DNA of 29,970 bases from a virus. Numbering within the stretch: the stretch's first letter is position 1; each line of letters starts with the position of its first letter. The notes beneath the pieces are model-generated. The model ran no database searches. It had not been told where the DNA came from and was given only the letters and a program-made list of their open reading frames with translations. Shown piece after piece: positions 2,947-29,312 of this stretch. The stretch lies in IMG/VR virus record IMGVR_UViG_3300013132_002041, positions 1-29,970 of that record. One strand, written 5' to 3'. The translations under genes and the position numbers were made by a program.

Positions 2947-2974
2947 AGCCCGGTTAAAATCCGGGCTTCTTTTT
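2947..2974 (+). terminator. Rho-independent terminator after gp19
   Basis: 7-bp stem AGCCCGG (2947-2953) / CCGGGCT (2961-2967), 7-nt loop, followed by TCTTTTT. Ends the gp18-gp19 transcript and lies just before a late promoter motif. Confidence 0.85.
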
Positions 2975-2977
2975 GGC

Positions 2978-2986
2978 GATAAATAA
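2978..2986 (+). promoter_or_regulatory. T4-type late promoter (GATAAATAA)
   Basis: GATAAATAA at 2978-2986, one base off TATAAATA in its first eight. With the motif at -13 to -6, +1 is about 2991, giving a 13-nt leader containing a TGGAA ribosome site before the ATG at 3004. Confidence 0.75.
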
Positions 2987-3003
2987 TATAAATGGAATAA
3001 CAT

Positions 3004-4002
3004 ATGGCACTTACTGATTTTTTAGGTGAATTAAGACAGTCAATAGCTCCGGATCAAAATATCCGCGACTTTCAACACGCCTCTCGCACCTTTATTGACA
3101 GTTTATACAGACTAAGTCCTAAACTAAGCACTCTATTCCATGTGTTTATTGATTTGAACGAAATAGTACAAACAGATCAAATTAGTCAAATTGAAATTGG
3201 CTTAATGGCTAAACAAATTCAATTACCTAGATTCAATGTACAGACTAAAACGCATAATTCTTACAACCGTAAGATGGTACAACAAGAACGTATTAATTAC
3301 GATCCTGTTGGTATTACGTTCCACGACGATAGCGCAGATCAAGTGGTTAACTTCTGGAAAAACTATTATCAATATTATTATAGAGACAGTGACTATCTTG
3401 CTAATGAAGAAACCTATAGATATGATAGTAAGTACCAGCAACGCCAGCAACAAGCCTGGGGATATAGCCCTGTAAAAAATGATGGTAATCAAAATTATAT
3501 TAAAGCTATAAGAATTTATAGCCTACATCAAAAGCGTTTTACATCTTATAATTTAATTAGACCTACTATAACAAGTTTTGCGCACGGGCAATTGGTCGCC
3601 GGTGATTATGCTCCCCTTGAACACACTATGCAAGTGCAATACGAAGCTATGTTATACGATAGCGGTCCGGTAAGTTCTGGAGTCGTACAAGGATTTGATG
3701 TTATACACTACGACAAGACTCCTAGTCCGTTACGTAATGCTGGTGCTGCACTAGGTGGCATTGAAGGAGTAATTAAAGGTGTACAACATGGTGATCTTGG
3801 GGCAATAGTTCACGGTGGTATTAACGTTTTTAATATTTTTACTGGTAGTGACGTGCAACTTAAGCAAGCACCGAGTATCGATTTAAGTAATATAGGAAAC
3901 GGTATTTTACGAGGGCAAAACCCATTTAGTAGTGTTTTTGCACCAACAAGTTCTACAGTGCAACAAGGAATAAGAAAGGCCATTGGGGGCTCTAGTGGCT
4001 AA
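3004..4002 (+). CDS. Tail-tube-like baseplate/tail-terminus protein (gp54-like?)
   Basis: A 332-residue virion protein, probably with a T4 tube-type fold. Residues ~40-110 read like gp19 in outline: FHVFIDLNE strand, IGLMAKQIQLPRFNVQTKT, then NRKMVQQERINYDPVGITFH. After this come a Tyr-rich helical stretch (FWKNYYQYYYRDSDY) and an EHTMQVQYEAMLYDSG strand, followed by a Gly/Ser-rich C-terminus. T4 baseplate proteins gp54 (320 aa, tube initiator) and gp48 (364 aa, tube cap) are tube paralogs of similar size, so gp54-like is the best guess. It has its own late promoter and comes between gp19 and two head/neck-type genes, so a neck tail-terminator role is also possible. Tube-like fold is moderately supported; exact identity is not. 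Confidence 0.55.
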   Translation: MALTDFLGELRQSIAPDQNIRDFQHASRTFIDSLYRLSPKLSTLFHVFIDLNEIVQTDQISQIEIGLMAKQIQLPRFNVQTKTHNSYNRKMVQQERINYDPVGITFHDDSADQVVNFWKNYYQYYYRDSDYLANEETYRYDSKYQQRQQQAWGYSPVKNDGNQNYIKAIRIYSLHQKRFTSYNLIRPTITSFAHGQLVAGDYAPLEHTMQVQYEAMLYDSGPVSSGVVQGFDVIHYDKTPSPLRNAGAALGGIEGVIKGVQHGDLGAIVHGGINVFNIFTGSDVQLKQAPSIDLSNIGNGILRGQNPFSSVFAPTSSTVQQGIRKAIGGSSG

Positions 4003-9200: not shown

Positions 9201-9230
9201 TTCTAACAGATAAATAACTATATGTTAGAA
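9201..9230 (+). promoter_or_regulatory. Late promoter inside an 8-bp inverted repeat at the homing endonuclease start
   Basis: GATAAATAA (9209-9217) is the loop of a perfect 8-bp inverted repeat TTCTAACA (9201-9208) / TGTTAGAA (9223-9230). The 3' arm covers the last two bases of the ATG (9222-9224). With the motif at -13 to -6, +1 is 9222, the A of the ATG. Read-through transcripts would fold and hide the start; transcripts from the late promoter would lack the 5' arm. Confidence 0.65.
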
Positions 9231-9950
9231 AACAAATACACCTCTTATTATAACAATATTATCAACAAAGCTAAAAATCGTCTATTAGATGGGTATTATG
9301 AAACCCATCATATTATTCCTAAATCGCTCGGCGGCACCAATCTTAAAGAAAATCTTGTAAACCTAACAGCCCGTGAACATTTTATTTGTCATCTTCTACT
9401 TACTAAAATGTATGAAGGTGATGCTAAAAGTAAAATGATACATGCTGCTTGGGCTATGACAACATTAGAAAATGAATTTCAACAAAGATACAAAATAACA
9501 TCAAAAATATATGAATCTCTGCGTATTGAATATGCAGAACTTGTTTCTAATAGATTATCCGGAAAACCTGGAAGAAAACATTCTGAGGAAACTAAAAAGA
9601 AATTGTCTTTAGCGATGGCAGGCAAATCAAATGGCCCAATGAGTGAAGAATCTAAAAGAAAACTATCCGAATCAATGAAGGGTAAAAACGTAGGAAAAAA
9701 ACGTACACTAGAACAAATTCAACAACAGTCACTACGACAAACTGGTAAGAAAAGAGCACCGCATTCTGAAGAAACAAAAGAAAAATTACGACTAGCTAAT
9801 CTTGGAAAAAAGAAAGCCCCCGACACTATAGAGACTCGTGTTAAAAAATCATTGGCATCAAAAGGCAAAACTAAATCGCCTGGCCAGGTTGCAAAGCAAC
9901 GAGAATCATTGTTGAATTATTACAAACAAAAAAAGATGGGACATAAGTAA
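9222..9950 (+). CDS. Free-standing HNH homing endonuclease with NUMOD3 repeats
   Basis: 242 residues. The HNH core is near the N-terminus: ETHHIIPKSLGG (H-H pair ~residues 28-29), NLKENLVNLTAREHFICHLL (central N and distal H). Basic NUMOD3-type DNA-binding repeats follow, of the form HSEETKKKLSLAMAGKS, MSEESKRKLSESMKGKN and HSEETKEKLRLANLGKK. It is very Lys-rich and more AT-rich in codon choice than its neighbours, as expected for a mobile gene. It lies between a small virion gene and gp17, four bases before the gp17 ATG. Such enzymes cut an empty allele and are copied in by repair; the target was probably this packaging locus of a relative. No intron is visible. Confidence 0.9.
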   Translation: MLENKYTSYYNNIINKAKNRLLDGYYETHHIIPKSLGGTNLKENLVNLTAREHFICHLLLTKMYEGDAKSKMIHAAWAMTTLENEFQQRYKITSKIYESLRIEYAELVSNRLSGKPGRKHSEETKKKLSLAMAGKSNGPMSEESKRKLSESMKGKNVGKKRTLEQIQQQSLRQTGKKRAPHSEETKEKLRLANLGKKKAPDTIETRVKKSLASKGKTKSPGQVAKQRESLLNYYKQKKMGHK

Positions 9951-16862: not shown

Positions 16863-17766
16863 GCATAGTTTAAGCGTATTAAATCTAATTCAGCAATATG
16901 ATATATTTTTAGAAAGTATACATCATATAGCTATTATGGGCTGCGGCGCAAGTGAAGATGTAGAATGGTGGGCTACACTGCTGAATAATAACGAACCCCC
17001 AGAGCCTTATAATTTTTCCTGCCATGTGGTTGATATAGACAGTAGTAAGTTGGCACAGTTACCCAACCTTAAAAACATTCATAAAGTAAATGCTGGGTTC
17101 GATGACGACTATATATTTCCTGTTCCTGTAGATTTTATCTATGCGCACGATTGTTTACAGTATAGTACAAATCCTTTAGCTACCTTAGCTAAATGGAACA
17201 GTTATATGAACACCAATGGTATGTTATTACTAAGTGTACCTCAGCATACAGGCATAGAATATGATCGACAATATAGTCGAGGCTACAGCGGATGTTATTT
17301 TCACTATACTCCAATTAGTCTAATTTATATGTTAGCTGTAAATGGATTCGATTGTCGTGACGCATACCTACTAAAACGTTTTCAAGATCCTTGGATTAAC
17401 TTGGCTGTATATAAATCTGATGTAGCCCCTATGGATCCTAAAACTACAACCTGGTTTGATCTAATAGAAAAGAACCTATTGCATCCAAGTATAGTTGATA
17501 GTATAAACGCCAATGGCTTTCTTAAACAAGAAGAAATCTGCATGCCATGGCTGGATAAAGAGTTGTATTTCATTGACTATATCAGTCAAATGATGGAAAT
17601 ACCTGCAGCAACAGAGACCACCGGGGTCGTTGAGGGGGTAATAGTTAAATCAGATAAAACTACAATAGCACAACCTGCTATCGTTGAAGTCAAAACCGAA
17701 ACACTAAAACCTAAAATTATTAAGAGCAAACCCCCAACAAGAAAGAGCTACAAACGTGGTGAATAA
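16846..17766 (+). CDS. SAM-dependent methyltransferase-like protein
   Basis: 306 residues, class I Rossmann methyltransferase pattern. Motif I is IAIMGCGASED (28-38), the acidic ribose-binding position is in VVDID (61-65), post-I/IV-like text is VDFIYAHDCLQY (95-106), and MNTNGMLLLSVPQHTG (121-136) is the usual strand 5. The C-terminal ~70 residues are a low-complexity Lys/Thr/Pro tail. The ATG at 16846 abuts a GGAGG; a TTG at 16855 lies nine bases after it and is the better-spaced start. It overlaps the UvsY-like gene and is followed, with an 11-bp overlap, by the nucleotidyltransferase-cupin gene. The substrate is unknown; context suggests a sugar or small metabolite. Product SAH could be cleared by the hydrolase at 26696-27982. 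Confidence 0.7.
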   Translation: MRQLVRHSLSVLNLIQQYDIFLESIHHIAIMGCGASEDVEWWATLLNNNEPPEPYNFSCHVVDIDSSKLAQLPNLKNIHKVNAGFDDDYIFPVPVDFIYAHDCLQYSTNPLATLAKWNSYMNTNGMLLLSVPQHTGIEYDRQYSRGYSGCYFHYTPISLIYMLAVNGFDCRDAYLLKRFQDPWINLAVYKSDVAPMDPKTTTWFDLIEKNLLHPSIVDSINANGFLKQEEICMPWLDKELYFIDYISQMMEIPAATETTGVVEGVIVKSDKTTIAQPAIVEVKTETLKPKIIKSKPPTRKSYKRGE

Positions 17767-18520
17767 GGTTGTACTAGTAACAGGCGGATTTGACCCGTTG
17801 CACTCTGGGCACATCGCCTATTTCCAAGCTGCACGTAAACTAGGTGATATGTTGGTGGTTGGTGTTAATAGCGATGCTTGGCTAACTCGTAAAAAAGGTC
17901 GTGCGTTTATGCCTAGCACAGAACGCATTAACATTATTCAACATCTCAATATGGTTGATCACTGCATCTTATTTAACGACAACGATAACTCAGCACGTGA
18001 AGCAATTCGTAATGTTAAGATGATGTACCCAAACAGCCAAATTATCTTTGCTAATGGTGGCGATCGCACTCAAGAAAATATTCCAGAAATGACAGAGCAG
18101 GATGTGATCTTTAAATTTGGCGTGGGCGGAGAGGACAAAAAGAATTCTAGCAGTTGGATACTTGAAGAATGGAAAGCACCCAAGACTGTGCGCCCTTGGG
18201 GCTACTATCGTGTTCTACACGAAGTATCTGGCACTAAAGTAAAAGAGCTTACTATACAACCTGGGCAAACTTTAAGTATGCAAAAGCACTTAGAACGTTC
18301 AGAAGAATGGATGGTAGCAGAGGGTAAGTGTATGGTAGAGCATTATACATTACCATCTAATAGTTTAGTACAACAAATAATCTCTAAACATCACACATAT
18401 CATGTTAGCGTAAATCAATGGCATAGATTGTTTAATCCGTTTGATAAACCCTGTCACATCATTGAAGTTCAATATGGCGACTATTGTAGTGAAGATGATA
18501 TAGAGCGTAAAGATAAATAA
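17756..18520 (+). CDS. Nucleotidyltransferase-cupin fusion (HldE/GCT-like plus ManC-type isomerase domain)
   Basis: 254 residues. Residues 1-~140 are a cytidylyltransferase-type domain: VTGGFDPLHSGHIAYF with the HxGH motif (16-19) and VVGVNSDAWLTRKKGR, as in ADP-heptose synthase and glycerol-3-phosphate cytidylyltransferases. Residues ~146-254 match the C-terminal cupin of bifunctional mannose-1-phosphate guanylyltransferase/isomerase: RPWGYYRVL, KVKELTIQPGQTLSMQKHLE, RSEEWMVAEG, QWHRLFNP, and IIEVQYGDYCSEDDI at the end. In the usual QxHxHRSEHW metal site the second His is Glu here (KHLERSEEW), so isomerase activity is uncertain. Start is GTG at 17756 or 17759, overlapping the preceding gene. 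Likely makes or modifies an activated sugar. Confidence 0.82.
   Translation: MVNKVVLVTGGFDPLHSGHIAYFQAARKLGDMLVVGVNSDAWLTRKKGRAFMPSTERINIIQHLNMVDHCILFNDNDNSAREAIRNVKMMYPNSQIIFANGGDRTQENIPEMTEQDVIFKFGVGGEDKKNSSSWILEEWKAPKTVRPWGYYRVLHEVSGTKVKELTIQPGQTLSMQKHLERSEEWMVAEGKCMVEHYTLPSNSLVQQIISKHHTYHVSVNQWHRLFNPFDKPCHIIEVQYGDYCSEDDIERKDK
18512..18520 (+). promoter_or_regulatory. T4-type late promoter
   Basis: GATAAATAA at 18512-18520, its last TAA being the stop codon of the upstream gene. Predicted +1 near 18525 leaves a leader of about three bases before the ATG at 18528. Confidence 0.7.
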
Positions 18521-20554: not shown

Positions 20555-21355
20555 ATGATCACGCGAATCTTGCTAATTGGTCCTAGTAGGATCAATGAAG
20601 CGGCTATCACCTTATCATTTGATGATAGACTGAATCCATTACCCGATAAGACTTATATCATCAGTCCGTATCCACAACACAAACTAGATAGTATATTTGC
20701 AGAATTTGGGGTAGACAGCTCTGCTTATACTCTATTAGATGATCTATACTTCGAACAGTTTTATGACCTAAGTCGTTACAAACACAATCATTGGTATTAC
20801 CAGCAAGCATTAAAATTTTGCGCAGTAGATCACTTCGACAGTGACTATTTCTTATTGCAAGATTGTGACCAAGTTCCTCTCAAACAGTTTGATTTTTTTG
20901 TCAACGGTAAACTAAACTTTAAAGCAGAAAATCTTTGGAATCCGTACCAAGAATTGTATGCTGAAATGGCAGAAAAACTTACAGGATTAAAACGTGTATT
21001 AAATTATAGTTTGGTAAACGAACTAATGCCCTACAGTAAACAAGATTGGGATAATCTTAAACAGTTACTTGAAGAGCGCAATAACTGTTTTTGGTTAGAT
21101 GCGTTTCCTAACATTAGAGAACTTGGCGAGCCCAAATGGCTAAGCGAATTTGAAATACTAGGCATTTATAAAACTAATCAGCCTGACGGCTGGACACATT
21201 ATCCTGCCACACCACAAGCGGCTATTAATAACTGGGATGATTTTTACATTATTGATTGGTCTAAACAAGACACAGTTAAGTTTCTAACACAGCCACTTAA
21301 GTATATGAGTCTGGCAGACGCAATTAAGGTAAGAGATTATCTCAAAAATATTTGA
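20555..21355 (+). CDS. Glycosyltransferase-like protein (DUF6492-type)
   Basis: 266 residues. N-terminal Rossmann-like start ITRILLIGPSRINEA, a DxD motif in DYFLLQDCDQVPL (D103, D105) as in GT-A enzymes binding nucleotide-sugar and a metal, and a WLSEFEILGIYKTNQPDG segment typical of the capsular-type transferases I associate with DUF6492. No membrane helix. The ATG follows the previous stop with no gap, and the gene ends just before a sigma70-like promoter. It may glycosylate a phage or host surface component, perhaps using sugars activated by the 17756-18520 enzyme; this is inference. Confidence 0.6.
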   Translation: MITRILLIGPSRINEAAITLSFDDRLNPLPDKTYIISPYPQHKLDSIFAEFGVDSSAYTLLDDLYFEQFYDLSRYKHNHWYYQQALKFCAVDHFDSDYFLLQDCDQVPLKQFDFFVNGKLNFKAENLWNPYQELYAEMAEKLTGLKRVLNYSLVNELMPYSKQDWDNLKQLLEERNNCFWLDAFPNIRELGEPKWLSEFEILGIYKTNQPDGWTHYPATPQAAINNWDDFYIIDWSKQDTVKFLTQPLKYMSLADAIKVRDYLKNI

Positions 21356-21380
21356 CACTTTAGGTTTTTTCAGTTAAACT
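21352..21380 (+). promoter_or_regulatory. Sigma70-like promoter for the omega operon
   Basis: TTGACA (21352-21357), 17-bp spacer, TAAACT (21375-21380). The -35 is perfect and the -10 matches 4 of 6. It lies 30 bases before the omega ATG and begins inside the end of the upstream gene. Suggests early, host-polymerase transcription. Confidence 0.65.
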
Positions 21381-21410
21381 AAAATACTAATCACCTAAAT
21401 AGGAATCATT

Positions 21411-21653
21411 ATGAAATCAACTCAACTCTCAATCGAACGGTATGATATCGACAAAGCATTAGAAGTATTTGACAACAATCAATTCCAGTTAATCCTTGCA
21501 TCGGCAGTGCGTGCCAGAGAAATTGCTAGCCAACGTGTATTCCAAGAACGCAACGGTGTTAAAGTCCCACACAAAAACAAACCAACAGTAGAAGCATTAT
21601 GTGAAATTGCTGAAGGTAAAATTGGTACAGAATATTTAAATAAAATTCGTTAA
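21411..21653 (+). CDS. rpoZ: RNA polymerase omega subunit homolog
   Basis: 80 residues. Omega wraps the beta-prime C-terminus and aids polymerase assembly. The family core is present: NQFQLILASAVRAREIAS (like the NRFxLxLxAxxRARQ helix), then KNKPTVEALCEIAEGKIG and TEYLN, matching the KPTVxALREIxxGKxG signature, best in betaproteobacterial omegas as I recall them. The N-terminal SIERYDIDKALEVFD corresponds to the DCLxxxxN region. Length matches bacterial omega (~67-91). It has a sigma70-like promoter and a TAGGAATC ribosome site. A phage copy could bias host polymerase toward phage promoters. Confidence 0.8.
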   Translation: MKSTQLSIERYDIDKALEVFDNNQFQLILASAVRAREIASQRVFQERNGVKVPHKNKPTVEALCEIAEGKIGTEYLNKIR

Positions 21654-21662
21654 GGAGAAATT

Positions 21663-21863
21663 ATGGCATTACCTAAAACAGCAGTGAACCTACACAAACA
21701 ATACAAGCGAATTGCTAGTACTATCTTAGATAAAAACGCACGTAGATTGTATCTAAATGCAATGATTGGTGCAGAAATTTCGTTTATGGCTGCTAAAAAT
21801 CGTAAGTTTAGTGATCCAGCAACAAGTCAACGTCCACGAAATAACGAAGCACCAAAAGATTAA
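21663..21863 (+). CDS. Small basic protein co-transcribed with omega
   Basis: 66 residues, not recognised. Helical, basic N-terminal part (AVNLHKQYKRIASTILDKNA, RRLYLNAMIGAEISFMAAKN) and a disordered polar tail (SDPATSQRPRNNEAPKD). It follows omega by nine bases with a strong AAGGAGAAA ribosome site, so both are one unit. A second transcription-modifying peptide would suit the context, but nothing in the sequence proves it. Confidence 0.65.
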   Translation: MALPKTAVNLHKQYKRIASTILDKNARRLYLNAMIGAEISFMAAKNRKFSDPATSQRPRNNEAPKD

Positions 21864-21866
21864 TTA

Positions 21867-22532
21867 TTATAGGGCTAGACCTAATAGATTGTACATAGGT
21901 TCTAGCCCTAAATTAATTGTAGAATATTGATAGTTTACGCCATCTAAAGTATAAATCTTGCCTAGTTCAGGCTCAAAATAACCAATAGTAGCAGCACCAA
22001 CAAATCTATGCTTAACATAGTTTAGTGGAACCCAGTACATTTTATAGTCACCTTTAACAGCATCAGTTGGGTGATTATTCTTTGGACTCCACCAAGCCAT
22101 TGGGTCAATCTTAATCATTTGCACCCAACGCCATTCTTTGCCGATAGTTGATAGTGCGTTCTTAAACGGCAAGAACTCTGGAAGCCATTCTATTTTAGCG
22201 GCGTTGCTGTCATAGTCCATGGTGTAGATGTATGTACCAGGATCAATATCTTTTGGAGTCTCTACATTCTTAAAGAGTTTCATGTAGTGTTCGTGAGCAG
22301 GAATGCCGTCAATGTTACATAAGTCTTTACAATTTAAGTTACCGGTAGAATCGCTGCGATACCACGCATAACTTTTTTGTATTCTTGGTGGAACCTGTAC
22401 AGTTTTAGCTAAGTTGTACATTTCGCTAACTTGGTCTAGCGGAATGTCGCTAATTGCAGTAAAGAAAGGATTATCTGAATGTTCTAGTCTGGGCAGACTT
22501 TGAAAAAATCTAATAGCTCTGTGATCTATCAT
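21867..22532 (-). CDS. Unknown protein, paralog B of the dioxygenase operon
   Basis: 221 residues from the ATG at 22532, chosen because MIDHRAIRFFQSL matches the start of paralog A (MIDVRTIRFFQGL). Shared blocks: AKT(V/I)(Q/H)(V/I)PPR, GNL near residue 60, LCN(I/T)DG(I/V)PAHEHY, GK(E/Q)WRWV(Q/M)(M/L)(I/V)(K/R)IDPM(A/G)WW, a Y-WxPLN strand, GYFEP(E/Q)(L/A)GK, and an identical YSTINLGLEPMYN near the C-terminus. Strand order resembles a double-stranded beta-helix (Asp/Asn hydroxylase-like), but expected metal histidines are not obvious: WWSPKNNH replaces the WWGPHVNV of paralog A. It is last in the operon and overlaps the preceding gene by 23 bases. No function assigned. Confidence 0.7.
   Translation of the reverse strand: MIDHRAIRFFQSLPRLEHSDNPFFTAISDIPLDQVSEMYNLAKTVQVPPRIQKSYAWYRSDSTGNLNCKDLCNIDGIPAHEHYMKLFKNVETPKDIDPGTYIYTMDYDSNAAKIEWLPEFLPFKNALSTIGKEWRWVQMIKIDPMAWWSPKNNHPTDAVKGDYKMYWVPLNYVKHRFVGAATIGYFEPELGKIYTLDGVNYQYSTINLGLEPMYNLLGLAL
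21870..21910. terminator. Bidirectional hairpin between convergent operons
   Basis: Perfect 10-bp inverted repeat TAGGGCTAGA (21870-21879) / TCTAGCCCTA (21901-21910), which can extend by ACCTA-like pairs across a bulged T. It overlaps the last codons of the minus-strand gene and lies right behind the plus-strand omega operon. AT-rich flanks but no clear U-run. Confidence 0.45.
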
Positions 22533-22977
22533 TGTTGAAACACCACTTCTCAATCGGCAAACCAAATGGCAAATAGAATATCCCGGGATTGTTGATCCAA
22601 CTAGCAGGCCTCCAATAACTAGGACCATACTCAGCTGGTGGATCGATATATTCTTCAGTTTCGCTATGTAGGAAACTAGCATTGTCTAGTAGCTTAACTT
22701 TGTCGATGTATAGGAAGTCTAGTTCTATATCGTCAATTTCCATATCAACGTTGGGCTTTGTGGGCCAAACTAATGCTAGTTGGTTTAATTGATCTACCGG
22801 ACAGTCAAATACAGTATCAATGCTGTAGAAAAACATATCTACATTACGATATATGTCAAAGTGAACACCGTGATCTTCAACAGTAAAAGGAAATTGTAGT
22901 TTGTTACAAAATACTTTTACATTAACATTTGTAACGGGCTCTAGTGCTTTAATCATTATCCTACAAGGTATAATCAT
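22510..22977 (-). CDS. Unknown protein between the two paralogs
   Basis: 155 residues from the ATG at 22977, which overlaps the upstream stop as ATGA; an internal ATG at 22956 (MIKALEPV) is an alternative. Beta-rich N-terminal half (NVNVKVFCNKLQFPFTVEDH, VHFDIYRNVDMFFYSIDTVF), an acidic middle (DMEIDDIELDFLYIDKVKLL), and a C-terminal Pro/Trp/Tyr-rich part GPSYWRPASWINNPGIFYLP. No known motif, signal peptide or membrane span. Coupled on both sides, so its product is expected to work with the paralogs. Confidence 0.65.
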   Translation of the reverse strand: MIIPCRIMIKALEPVTNVNVKVFCNKLQFPFTVEDHGVHFDIYRNVDMFFYSIDTVFDCPVDQLNQLALVWPTKPNVDMEIDDIELDFLYIDKVKLLDNASFLHSETEEYIDPPAEYGPSYWRPASWINNPGIFYLPFGLPIEKWCFNNDRSQSY

Positions 22978-23585
22978 TCACATACTCCGGTTATGTTATA
23001 CATGGGTTCTAGGCCAAGGTTAATAGTTGAATACTCATATATGTGTCCACGTTGTATATATGCCTTGCCTGCCTGCGGCTCAAAATATCCACTGTTCTGA
23101 CTAGCGAAGAACCGATTTTTAACTTGATTAAGAGGAATCCAATAGAGTGTATAGTCTTTGTCTTTATCTGCTGGGACATTAACATGCGGACCCCACCAAC
23201 CCATTGGATCAATACGCACTAGCATAACCCAGCGCCACTGTTTGCCTATAGGAGCTAATATGTCACGAAATAGTTCCATACCATCTGCCCATTGTAGATG
23301 CGGTTCATCAACTGCACTACCTGTAAATATTTTTTGATAGTGCTCGTGTGCCGGTACACCGTCTGTATTACATAGGTCAACACTGTATAAATTACCAGTG
23401 TGATCATCATTGAACCAACGATAACGTTTTCTCGTACGTGGAGGAATATGAATAGTTTTTGCTATATCGTGCATAGTGGATAATTTATCAGGAGCGATGT
23501 CAAACACTTCTTCAAAGAAGTGATGGTTAGAAGTGTTTGATTTATCTAACCCTTGAAAAAATCTGATTGTGCGAACATCGATCAT
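22974..23585 (-). CDS. Unknown protein, paralog A of the dioxygenase operon
   Basis: 203 residues from the ATG at 23585, which overlaps the dioxygenase stop as TAATG; the open frame extends 15 bases further but the paralog start fixes this ATG. Features: IPPRTRKRYRW (47-57), LCNTDGVPAHEHY (71-83), GKQWRWVMLVRIDPMGWWGP (114-133) with H134, LYWIPLNQVKNRFF (147-160), GYFEPQAGKAY (166-176) and YSTINLGLEPMYN (185-197). The order resembles the Asp/Asn beta-hydroxylase-type double-stranded beta-helix, with H134 at the first metal position, but the expected distal HS(V/I)N reads YSTIN. Possibly a divergent or non-catalytic member; otherwise unknown. Confidence 0.7.
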   Translation of the reverse strand: MIDVRTIRFFQGLDKSNTSNHHFFEEVFDIAPDKLSTMHDIAKTIHIPPRTRKRYRWFNDDHTGNLYSVDLCNTDGVPAHEHYQKIFTGSAVDEPHLQWADGMELFRDILAPIGKQWRWVMLVRIDPMGWWGPHVNVPADKDKDYTLYWIPLNQVKNRFFASQNSGYFEPQAGKAYIQRGHIYEYSTINLGLEPMYNITGVCE

Positions 23586-24835: not shown

Positions 24836-25510
24836 ATGACTAAACCTTTAATATTTTTAGGTACTTGTGCGAATATTATTCGATACAAAGATGCAGCAGA
24901 ACGCCAGGGCTATACGGTTGTTGGTGTACTTGACAGTGATTGGTACGGTAACAGGCCTGATTATTTGGGTATTCCGGTATTAGACACAGAACAAGCCATA
25001 GACAAATATAAAGATTCGCATGAGTTCTTCGTAGCTACCAACTGGACTATAGACCCAAACCACGTGCGTGATACTCAAAAACGTAAAATGTTGATTAACT
25101 TAGTGCGCGAGCATAATGTTAATTGCATTAACCTGATTGACCCTACTAGTTACATCGGTACAGGCACACAAATAGGGCAAGGCGTTTATATTGCCTACTG
25201 TGCTATGATTGAGCCAGGTACTATTATTAAAGATTTTGCACAAGTGCATGACTTTGTTGGCCTGGCACACGGAACAGTAGTAGGAGAAAATACTATTATT
25301 CAGCGTCAAGCAGGACTTCATGCAGACATTGGTGATGACGTTTATATAGGCATGTGGGCCAAAGCATACAAGCCGGGGTTATTAAAAATAGGCAATCGTG
25401 CAATAATTAATCCTAGCCTGTACGTTGCTCGTGACGTTGCAGAAGGTGAACAAGTGCGTTTGACCAAAGATAGTATTAAAATTTATCAACATGGAATTAA
25501 AATAGAATAG
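24836..25510 (+). CDS. NeuD/PglD-type sugar O-/N-acyltransferase
   Basis: 224 residues. N-terminal Rossmann-like half: PLIFLGTCANIIRYKDAAER, then GYTVVGVLDSDWYGNRPDYL and GIPVLD, as in the sugar-binding domain of NeuD/PglD. C-terminal left-handed beta-helix built of hexapeptide repeats: IGTGTQIGQGVYIAY, IEPGTIIKDFAQVHDFVGLA, VVGENTIIQ, IGDDVYIGM, IGNRAIINPS. The His in HDF or AHG is a candidate catalytic base. It transfers an acyl group, usually acetyl from CoA, to an amino or hydroxyl group of a sugar nucleotide. The ACP gene follows by two bases, so an ACP-bound donor is possible. A diverged copy of its last ~22 codons appears in the scar at 25762-25878. Confidence 0.82.
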   Translation: MTKPLIFLGTCANIIRYKDAAERQGYTVVGVLDSDWYGNRPDYLGIPVLDTEQAIDKYKDSHEFFVATNWTIDPNHVRDTQKRKMLINLVREHNVNCINLIDPTSYIGTGTQIGQGVYIAYCAMIEPGTIIKDFAQVHDFVGLAHGTVVGENTIIQRQAGLHADIGDDVYIGMWAKAYKPGLLKIGNRAIINPSLYVARDVAEGEQVRLTKDSIKIYQHGIKIE

Positions 25511-25512
25511 GA

Positions 25513-25758
25513 ATGGATATGGATAACATTGAAGAAGTTTTAAAACAAATTGTCGCTGACCAGTTGGGTCGTAACGTAGATGAGATAGATATTAGTCACG
25601 AACTAGTAAACGATCTTGGAGGAGACTCATTGGATGCTGTTGAGATTACAGTTTCTATTGAAGAAGAGTTTGGTATTAAGATTCTAGATTCTGAATATGT
25701 TGACATAAAATCACTAGAAGAGTACGCTGACTTAATTAAAGCAAAATTGGAAAAATAA
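25513..25758 (+). CDS. Acyl carrier protein
   Basis: 81 residues. The phosphopantetheine site GGDSLDAVEI is present with S39 as attachment residue; the flanking LVNDLGGDSLD and VSIEEEFGIKI are classical ACP text. Strongly acidic, four-helix size. Needs a host phosphopantetheinyl transferase for activation. The start may be the ATG at 25513 or 25519; TAGGAAT upstream suits the latter better. Placed two bases after the acyltransferase and before the pseudogene scar. It may feed an acyl group to that enzyme or tie into host lipid synthesis; the partner is inference. Confidence 0.93.
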   Translation: MDMDNIEEVLKQIVADQLGRNVDEIDISHELVNDLGGDSLDAVEITVSIEEEFGIKILDSEYVDIKSLEEYADLIKAKLEK

Positions 25759-26695: not shown

Positions 26696-27982
26696 ATGGA
26701 TTACAAAGTCGCAGATATTAGCTTGGCCGCATGGGGCCATAAAGAAATAGCCATTGCAGAAACAGAAATGCCAGGATTAATGGCAGTCCTTGAGGAATAC
26801 AAAGATGAACAACCATTAGCTGGTGCTCGTATTGCAGGTAGTCTACATATGACTATTCAAACAGCAGTGTTGATTAAAACGTTAGTAGCGTTGGGCGCAA
26901 GTGTACGCTGGTCAAGCTGTAACATTTTCTCAACACAAGACCACGCTGCGGCCGCAATTGCCGATTTGGGTATTCCTGTGTTTGCTTGGAAAGGCGAAAC
27001 AGAAGATGAGTACTGGGGTTGCATTGAACGAACAGTAAGTGGCCCGGGCGACTGGAAACCTAATATGATCTTAGATGATGGACACGATCTTACATGGTAT
27101 ATCCATAAACATCATCCTGGGTTACTAGATGATATCCGCGGTGTAACGGAAGAAACTACAACAGGCATACACAAGATCAATGAAGCCATCGGCCGCGGCG
27201 AGTTTAAACTACGTGCTATTAACGTAAACGATAGTGTGACTAAAACTAAATTTGATAACTTATACGGATGCAGAGAAAGTCTAGTAGACGGTATCAAACG
27301 TGCAACAGACAGTATGATTGCAGGTAAAGTTGCTGTGGTAGCAGGCTATGGTGACGTAGGTAAAGGTAGTGCTGCTAGTCTTAAAGCATTAGGTGCACGT
27401 GTTTGGGTTACAGAAATTGACCCAATTTGTGCCTTGCAAGCCGCCATGGAAGGGTACTATGTAACTACTATGGACTTTGCCGCATCACACGCTAACATCT
27501 TTGTAACGGCGACTGGTAACATCAATGTTATCACACATGATCATATGGCTAAGATGAAACACAATAGTATTGTTTGTAACATTGGTCACTTTGACAGTGA
27601 GATTGATGTTGCTAGTCTTGCTAATTACGAGTGGGAAGAAATTAAACCTCAAGTCGATCATGTTATTTTTCCTGACGGTAAACGTATTATCCTGTTGGCT
27701 AAAGGACGACTAGTAAACTTAGGATGCGGCACGGGCCACCCAAGCTATGTTATGTCAAATAGCTTTACTAATCAGGTTCTAGCGCAAATTGAAATGTATA
27801 ATAATTGGGAAAACTACAACCCAGGGCATTTATATTTGTTACCTAAACATCTAGATGAGAAAGTTGCCAAACTACACCTGGCACAAATAGGTGCGCATTT
27901 AACAGAGTTAACAGAAGCACAAGCAGAGTATATTAGTGTGCCTATTAATGGTCCTTACAAATCGGATACATATCGATACTAA
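26696..27982 (+). CDS. ahcY: S-adenosylhomocysteinase
   Basis: Hydrolyses SAH to adenosine and homocysteine, relieving product inhibition of methyltransferases. 428 residues, full length. N-terminal part: [20 protein letters not shown] and [12 protein letters not shown]. Catalytic region: [11 protein letters not shown] (127-137), [11 protein letters not shown] (150-160) and [19 protein letters not shown] (179-197) with K183 and D187. NAD-binding [14 protein letters not shown] (217-230) and the acidic E240. The C-terminal [10 protein letters not shown] carries the conserved Lys/Tyr that reach the neighbouring subunit's NAD. The residue after DDG is His where bacterial enzymes usually have Gly. 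AGAGGA is the ribosome site, with TATAAT at 26679-26684. A terminator follows. It appears functional. Confidence 0.96.
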
Positions 27983-28082: not shown

Positions 28083-28133
28083 GAAATAGTATACACTATA
28101 TTAGTGTTATCCAAAATTAGGAGAACTAAAGTA

Positions 28134-29312
28134 ATGAAGAAAAGTTTATTAGCAACACTATTAGCTGGTTTGTTCGCAACATCAGCACAAGCTGGTATTG
28201 TAATTCCGGCAGGTGAATGGACATTGGACATTAACGGTAACGTTAATGCTTATGCTTCTATCAATAATGCTAAAGACAGCAACGTTATCGCTGGCGGTAT
28301 AGCAACTGTTAAAGACGCACGTGGTGAAAGCCACACGCAAGGCATCAACACTGGTTTGTTACCTGTGTCATTGGGCATCAGTGGTAAATCACGCCAAAAC
28401 GATCTAGATATTGGTTTTACTATCAGTATCCAACCAAACGTGTCTGATAATTCAGCAACAGGCGACACAGCAGCTCCATTGTTCCGTCAAGCATATTTGA
28501 CCGTTGGCGATGCTAGCTGGGGTACTGTTAAGCTAGGTAAAGACATTGGTGTTTTTGCTAGCGAGTCAATTCTTAACGATATGACATTGTTAGGTGTCGG
28601 TGGCTATTCAGCTGGTACAGCATTCCCAGGTAGTGGCGCAGCTACAACCTACGGTGGCATTGGTACTGGTTATATCTACCCAGCATGGAAAGCTCAAGTA
28701 GCTTATTCAACACCAAACTTCAATGGCCTACAAGCTACTGTAGCTATTACTAACCCTAACCAAACAAGCGGTAATGAATTATATCAAGACCGTTTTGGTT
28801 ATGAAGGTAAAGTTACATACGATTACCTAGCAGGTGACGTAAAAGGTCGTGTATGGTCAAGTGCTGCAAGTTATAAAGTTCAAACAGCTTCAGCTGGTGA
28901 ATACACAGCTTACGCTTGGGACTTGGGTGCTACTGCTAACTACGGCCCATTTGGTGTTGTTGGTACATACTACAATGGTAAAGGTGCTGGTACAACTACA
29001 TTTGGTTCAAACGGTGTAGATGCTAACGGTTCACGTCGTGACAGCGATGGTTACTATGTACAAGGTACATACGTAACGCCAATTAAAACTAAAGTTGGTG
29101 TTGCTTACGGTCGCAGCAACTTAGACAAAGCTAACGGTTCAGACCTAGCTAATCTAGTTGATTACAATGAGCGTATCACTGTTGGTGCTTACCACCCATT
29201 AACTAAGAGCTTAAACTTAGTTGCTGAATACAATCGTGTTACTTCTAAAGCGCACAACGGTTTAGAGAACGAAAGCGATACATACTCAGCAGGTGCTATC
29301 TTATTCTTCTAA
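28134..29312 (+). CDS. Outer-membrane porin (Gram-negative general porin family)
   Basis: 392 residues from the ATG at 28134, chosen for its AGGAGA site and because a signal peptide then starts correctly: MKKSLLATLLAGLFATSAQA, cleaved before GIVIPAGEW. The frame is open 30 bases further upstream. The mature part is a beta-barrel: alternating strands such as WTLDINGNVNAYASI, SLGISGKS, WGTVKLGKDIGVFASES (the usual L3-loop lead-in of trimeric porins), QVAYSTPNFNGLQATVAI, and a terminal YSAGAILFF ending in Phe, the outer-membrane assembly signal. Codon style is like the phage genes around it. The family suggests a betaproteobacterial source. In a phage it might change nutrient uptake or replace a surface receptor. 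Followed by a strong terminator. Confidence 0.9.
   Translation: MKKSLLATLLAGLFATSAQAGIVIPAGEWTLDINGNVNAYASINNAKDSNVIAGGIATVKDARGESHTQGINTGLLPVSLGISGKSRQNDLDIGFTISIQPNVSDNSATGDTAAPLFRQAYLTVGDASWGTVKLGKDIGVFASESILNDMTLLGVGGYSAGTAFPGSGAATTYGGIGTGYIYPAWKAQVAYSTPNFNGLQATVAITNPNQTSGNELYQDRFGYEGKVTYDYLAGDVKGRVWSSAASYKVQTASAGEYTAYAWDLGATANYGPFGVVGTYYNGKGAGTTTFGSNGVDANGSRRDSDGYYVQGTYVTPIKTKVGVAYGRSNLDKANGSDLANLVDYNERITVGAYHPLTKSLNLVAEYNRVTSKAHNGLENESDTYSAGAILFF

Follow-up and report, generated by a model that had tools for sequence, protein, structure and literature searches.

A virus record of 29,970 bases, which is referred to here as the window and is probably a fragment, encodes a true homologue of the RNA polymerase omega subunit, as confirmed by sequence and by predicted fold. 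This phage omega is no isolated oddity but belongs to a family found in large T4-related uncultivated phages. The core of bacterial omega is largely kept across the family, while the N-terminal residues that hold the alarmone ppGpp at Site 1 of the polymerase are replaced. The best explanation that we can offer, and one that we hold tentatively, is that the phage subunit would replace host omega and yield a polymerase without Site 1.

Phages usually reprogramme the RNA polymerase of their host by means of sigma factors, anti-sigma proteins or modifying enzymes, and a replacement core subunit would be a different strategy. Among the open-access papers searched, none described an omega subunit encoded by a phage. 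What omega and ppGpp Site 1 do is itself still debated. Omega residues 2-5 coordinate the phosphates of ppGpp, and an omega from which they are deleted no longer supports ppGpp binding at Site 1 (PMC7676912). The Site 1 contacts are made by the main chain of Ala2, Arg3 and Val4; Site 1 controls elongation, pausing and backtracking, and the stringent response of Escherichia coli runs through Site 2, not Site 1 (PMC10191844).

Results

The window encodes an RNA polymerase omega homologue

An earlier, sequence-only reading of the window had proposed that an 80-residue product carries the omega core, and both elements of that core, the RAREI helix and KPTVEALCEIAEGKIG, are present (Table 1). The RpoZ family models support the assignment. 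The product matched Pfam RNA_pol_Rpb6 (PF01192) with an E-value of 4.4e-9 and a score of 36.7 bits (cut-off 26), and NCBIfam TIGR00690 (rpoZ) with an E-value of 2.3e-8 and a score of 34.0 bits (cut-off 23.6). When a profile of ten phage homologues was searched against the PDB, it returned 22 sequences, all of them RNA polymerase omega. Structure prediction gave the same identity: an AlphaFold model of omega made from 20 phage sequences had a mean pLDDT of 80.7, and its 36 best PDB matches in Foldseek were all RNA polymerase omega chains, with a best probability of 0.99 and query TM-scores of 0.41-0.58. The Foldseek E-values were weak (0.08 and up), as is expectable at 80 residues, and the ranking was exclusive. 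Two outcomes that the sequence-only reading had named as refuting it, the absence of an RpoZ match and a predicted structure other than that of omega, thus did not occur. A chance open reading frame or a misread motif is ruled out by the two profile matches, by the Foldseek ranking and by the purifying selection described below. The same reading held that omega is no part of the T4 gene set, and this agrees with our searches, in which PF01192 was not matched in T4, nor in PA5oct, GAP32, Atu_ph07, Phosso or Vibrio phage 2.275.O.

Searches identified T4-type genes in the window for a UvsY-like protein and for a large terminase about 55% identical to that of Pseudomonas phage PA5oct, and the order of the T4-type genes agrees with that in PA5oct. 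Further translations are presumably those of sheath, tube, head completion and single-strand binding proteins and of UvsX. Host contamination as the source of the omega gene is ruled out by this T4-type module and by the recurrence of the gene in comparable surroundings on many viral contigs.

Table 1. Positions of features in the window (ORF, open reading frame; aa, amino acids)
Feature	Position	Strand	Description
-35 element	21352..21357	+	TTGACA, from sequence; TTGAC(A/C/T) kept upstream of omega homologues
-10 element	21375..21380	+	TAAACT; 17-nt spacer; most homologues have TATA(A/C)T
Omega Shine-Dalgarno-like site	21401..21404	+	AGGA, from sequence
Omega ORF	21411-21653	+	80 aa, ATG start; RpoZ/Rpb6 family
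p66 Shine-Dalgarno-like site	21652..21657	+	AAGGAG, from sequence
p66 ORF	21663-21863	+	66 aa, ATG start; basic, predicted pI 10.5
Hairpin	21870..21910		14-pair stem, between p66 end and convergent gene 21867-22682 (-)
HNH/NUMOD3 homing endonuclease-like gene	9222-9950	+	Directly before large terminase
Cytidylyltransferase-cupin fusion	17756-18520	+	Cytidylyltransferase domain fused to mannose-6-phosphate isomerase-type cupin
Two-copy family, one copy	21867-22550	-	About 200-227 aa, ending YSTINLGLEPMYN...
Two-copy family, other copy	22974-23582	-	Diverged copy of the same family
Hexapeptide-repeat transferase	24836-25510		Adjoins acyl carrier protein
Acyl carrier protein	25513-25758	+
S-adenosylhomocysteinase	26696-27982	+	428 aa, E 1e-126
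Porin	28104-29312	+	392-402 aa; Gram-negative Porin_4, E 1.6e-23; signal-peptide-like start

A conserved sigma-70-type promoter precedes the omega gene

The omega gene had been said to possess its own promoter with a perfect TTGACA -35 element and to be co-transcribed with a 66-residue basic protein. The -35 element is present and conserved across the homologues. Taken alone, the window promoter is not significant, 53 such sites having been found against 49.9 in shuffled sequence; it becomes significant because it is conserved across homologues. For each of 45 distinct omega genes, we scored the top-ranking site in the 90 nt before the gene on a scale with a maximum of 12; the mean was 10.76, as compared to 7.91 for 392 control ORFs from the same loci. 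The spacer of this sigma-70-type site measures 17 nt in 44 of the 45 genes, and in those 44 the end of the -10 element lies 21-34 nt from the start codon (the start in locus L108 having been corrected). Since the genes upstream of omega vary among loci, the promoter belongs with the omega gene. A second, very divergent omega type, described below, has a perfect TTGACA-17-TATAAT 20 nt before its start. The element can thus be taken, from its conservation, as a real promoter of strong sigma-70 consensus. Unmodified host polymerase should transcribe omega from such a promoter, and transcription is hence probably early. T4 late promoters (TATAAATA) gave no signal in the window, with 2 found and 4 expected.

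The p66 ORF starts 9 nt past the omega stop codon. The hairpin beyond it has a z-score of -4.7, with none of 200 shuffles folding equally well; it is without a T-tract and is a possible end of the omega-p66 transcription unit. The 9-nt gap and the downstream hairpin are consistent with the predicted co-transcription of omega and p66 as a two-gene unit. In the same phage group, a 187-aa gene that appears peroxiredoxin-like by eye has a conserved TTGACC-18-TATAAT of its own (L013 11915, L031 8324, L040 8307).

Phage omegas form a family under purifying selection

Scans of IMG/VR gave 14 loci and then 51 loci, with 45 distinct predicted omega products, and the contigs that carry the main-set phage omega reach 329 kb. 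The second omega type lies at 2962-3222 of a 356-kb contig (L260; IMGVR_UViG_3300023174_000036). The situation among 50,697 phage records is different: tblastn with the omegas of the window, of locus L063 and of E. coli found no genuine phage omega there. Matches in isolate phages look like bacterial contamination (for instance 100% E. coli omega in "Campylobacter phage" and Salmonella records). Seven "phage" records with bacterial rpoZ are MG065691, MG065686, OR845831, OR851528, AFYI01000003, AGRM01000003 and CAKLQH020000003, and six of the seven are identical to E. coli omega across the 75-aa query. Large Acinetobacter contigs annotated with rpoZ in the phage collection are also contamination-like.

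No PHROGs family was matched by the window omega, and no close relative turned up when bacterial genomes were scanned with the profile of the phage omegas; by profile score, Burkholderiales-type omegas were the nearest among the Pseudomonadota tested. In a tree, 44 phage omegas and 43 Pseudomonadota omegas were split by one branch with support of 98/85. Built from few columns (67) and with bacterial sampling from Pseudomonadota only, the tree shows a long separation of the phage sequences from these bacterial omegas and says nothing on their source. Pairwise dN/dS lay at 0.03-0.22 in the omega gene and at 0.06-0.11 in that of p66. Both genes are under selection, which in omega is strongly purifying.

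p66 is a conserved but not obligatory partner

The 66-residue basic neighbour, called unknown when first noticed, is a conserved protein that matched no known family. Its predicted structure is a two-helix hairpin (residues 12-20 and 24-45) followed by a flexible basic tail, RKFSDPATSQ. Searches of Pfam, NCBIfam, PHROGs, PDB sequences and Foldseek/VIA yielded nothing convincing for p66, whose fold may be one absent from these collections, and no DNA-binding domain was recognised in it. The sequence-only reading suggested that p66 may be another polymerase-binding peptide. It does not resemble the T4 late co-activator gp33: PF16805 was matched by none of the nine p66 members scanned, and a separate PF16805 protein coexists with p66 in a 216-kb contig (G008).

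The p66 gene is the commonest neighbour of omega. It lies directly downstream in 27 of the 45 cases and within 1 kb in 3 more, and is absent downstream in 13; the pairing extends to L108, a 216-kb contig that is very divergent. p66 was found in each of the nine large contigs searched, of which seven carry omega, and the two genes stand apart in four of these seven (G001, G002, G004 and G005). The other contigs, G007 and G009, have p66 and no omega in their sequenced part. At locus L011, a tRNA-like sequence (by eye) directly follows omega. Where p66 occurs without omega, it often has a TTGACA-type promoter of its own (L067, L080, L104), or it follows a 79-aa gene bearing such a promoter (L085, L096, L107). 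The pairing of omega with p66 is strong, then, without being obligatory. Members of the 79-aa family (MKYTQEQIIELAKEVE...) that stand before p66 with a sigma-70-type promoter are found at L088 5748-5987, L096 5691-5930 and L107 5750-5989; the family had no PHROG match.

Phage omegas depart from bacterial omega at the N terminus and at position 52

We compared 88 proteobacterial omegas with 44 phage omegas, comprising 40 of the main group and 4 outlying ones, in an alignment whose N-terminal part was fixed on a motif common to both, (V/I)-(E/D)-x-(C/A)-L. The RAR, V-x-A-L, E53 and G57 of the bacterial core are largely retained in phage. The majority residue is the same on both sides at R26, A27, R28, V48, A50, L51, E53 and G57 (E. 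coli numbering); R26, V48 and G57 occur in 40/40 main-group members, and L51 is also largely invariant.

The departures are concentrated elsewhere. In all 88 sampled proteobacterial omegas, MAR(I/V)T at residues 1-5 and Arg52 are invariant, Met1, Ala2, Arg3 and Thr5 being so individually. Every main-group phage omega, in contrast, has Glu at position 2 (40/40) and Asn or Asp at position 5 (40/40), with Tyr or Val at position 4 and an N terminus that is longer by 6-9 residues. Arg3 is retained in about half of the phage omegas. Arg52 is found in none of the 44: the main group has Cys, Ile, Leu, Tyr, Val or Ala in its place, and the 4 outlying omegas likewise lack it. The window omega reads IERYD at positions 1-5, behind a 7-residue extension, and has Cys at position 52, while the omega of the 356-kb contig is without MAR and has Glu at position 52 (by eye). 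Glu9 is invariant and the extension is kept in the 40 main-group members.

The sequence-only reading suggested that a phage omega could replace or supplement the host subunit and steer polymerase toward phage promoters. We found no direct support for steering. The clearest differences from host omega, the changed N terminus and the loss of Arg52, suggest altered ppGpp sensing rather than altered promoter choice. Residues 2-5, by which omega holds ppGpp in Site 1, are replaced in the phage proteins, and the phage omega therefore probably makes the host polymerase blind to ppGpp at this site. Arg52 enters the argument through its invariance in the sampled bacterial omegas.

Other genes of the window

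The nearest bacterial relatives found for the porin, which come from sphingomonads and other Pseudomonadota, share only about 30-35% identity with it; a porin made by a phage could change the host surface. The S-adenosylhomocysteinase gene is found downstream of omega or p66 at L003, L013, L036, L092 and L096 as well; the enzyme had three matching records in the phage collection, two of them contamination-like. The acyl carrier protein and the adjoining transferase apparently form a small acyl-transfer module, and a host-like TauD-family oxygenase gene is also present. The two-copy family, whose members are separated by an unrelated 155-aa gene, had no Pfam match. A protein similar to the cytidylyltransferase-cupin fusion is encoded just upstream of omega at L011.

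Discussion

Beta-prime was not found in seven phage contigs, some of them incomplete, whereas a gp55-like late sigma is present in four contigs and a clear gp33-like co-activator in one. To judge from this absence in partly incomplete contigs, these phages most likely rely, as T4 does, on the core enzyme of the host, and the phage omega would become part of that enzyme or influence it. The mechanism that we propose would begin with an omega homologue maintained by purifying selection in large T4-related phages and transcribed early, by unmodified host polymerase, from its strong consensus sigma-70 promoter. Because no beta-prime was seen in the phage contigs searched, the product would take the place of host omega on host beta-prime. 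The resulting polymerase would be without ppGpp Site 1, given the replacement of residues 2-5, the acidic residue at Ala2, the 6-9-residue extension and the missing Arg52. When ppGpp is high, as in starvation or infection stress, such an enzyme would undergo less ppGpp-enhanced pausing and backtracking, which would help the long transcription units of these phages. p66, presumably expressed from the same promoter, would probably act in the same early programme.

Other roles for the phage omega have to be weighed against this mechanism. Close to the steering idea of the sequence-only reading is a role as a recruitment platform, in which the phage subunit would likewise replace host omega, and a phage regulator, p66 or another, would dock on it and direct the polymerase to phage promoters. 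The GafA protein activates the genes of the gene transfer agent RcGTA through direct omega binding (PMC9638019), and p66, which lies behind the omega promoter, is the gene most often found beside omega, also in the divergent L108. Yet p66 is separable from omega, the two being apart in four large contigs and p66 standing without omega in two more, and it has no recognised DNA-binding domain; we regard this role as unlikely. Alternatively, an extra omega might serve to fold and stabilise beta-prime and so sustain polymerase numbers during a long infection, with ppGpp and promoter choice irrelevant. Help with beta-prime folding and assembly is what omega is best known for (PMC7700224; PMC5811629), and conserved core motifs and a strong promoter would suit such a supply role. 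We nevertheless think it quite improbable, as it leaves unexplained the family-wide changes at the N terminus and Arg52, and also why the main-group members, all 40 of them, have Glu9 and keep the extension.

The long branches that separate the phage proteins from bacterial omegas, and their longer loop after the RAREIA helix, would be in keeping with a re-use of the omega fold, either to sequester or displace the partners of host omega or to bind another host protein. The residues of the bacterial invariant core (R26, V48, L51, G57) are largely invariant in the phages too, however, and we give this idea little credence. Hardly credible at all is a passenger gene, picked up recently from a host and without selected function. 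The window phage does bear host-like genes, namely those for S-adenosylhomocysteinase, acyl carrier protein and porin, but the omega gene has a dN/dS far below 1, a promoter conserved in nearly all homologues, a long separation from bacterial omegas and no close bacterial relative by the family profile. The tree, the conserved promoter and dN/dS all contradict the passenger reading.

Replacement of host omega with loss of Site 1, the reading we tentatively prefer, has weak points of its own. The Site 1 contacts are main-chain contacts, and the site could survive the substitutions by themselves; the N-terminal extension is the stronger argument for its loss. About half of the phage proteins, moreover, still have Arg3. 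The Site 1 features might never have been present in the ancestral omega, as only Pseudomonadota were sampled for the tree. Since the stringent response of E. coli runs through Site 2, the benefit of losing Site 1 may be modest. Doubt weighs more heavily on the broader proposal that large T4-related phages, among which there are at least two omega types, would swap in a Site 1-removing subunit to obtain alarmone-insensitive elongation and would employ a dedicated small partner. Natural omegas that keep the core while consistently losing Site 1 features offer a tool to separate the structural role of omega from its role in ppGpp sensing, and they suggest that phages can be hindered by ppGpp through its action on the elongating polymerase.

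Comparison with known systems

The phage proteins share with bacterial omega (RpoZ; TIGR00690, PF01192) the RF-x-L-x-L-x-x-x-x-RAR helix, the K-P-x-V-x-A-L-x-E-I-x-x-G motif, the C-terminal helix and the predicted fold. They differ from it in being phage-encoded, in their 6-9 extra N-terminal residues, and in the loss of MAR(I/V)T and Arg52; in addition, the RF motif is preceded by one more residue, and the loop that follows RAREIA is longer. Giant eukaryotic viruses encode Rpb6-family subunits along with a whole polymerase. A virus-encoded member of the omega/Rpb6 family is thus common to both, whereas beta-prime was found in none of the seven phage contigs searched here. T4 modifies host RNA polymerase early in infection through AsiA and Alt/Mod, among others, and late through the sigma factor gp55 and the co-activator gp33. 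The remodelling of the host core by small phage proteins is a shared principle, and gp55-like and gp33-like genes are found in relatives of the window phage; T4, however, has no omega and works by add-on factors, whereas the phages described here supply a core subunit. Finally, in the GafA-omega system of RcGTA (PMC9638019), a virus-like element is likewise expressed through an omega subunit. There, the omega is that of the host and the element contributes a regulator that binds it; in the present case, the omega itself is encoded by the phage.
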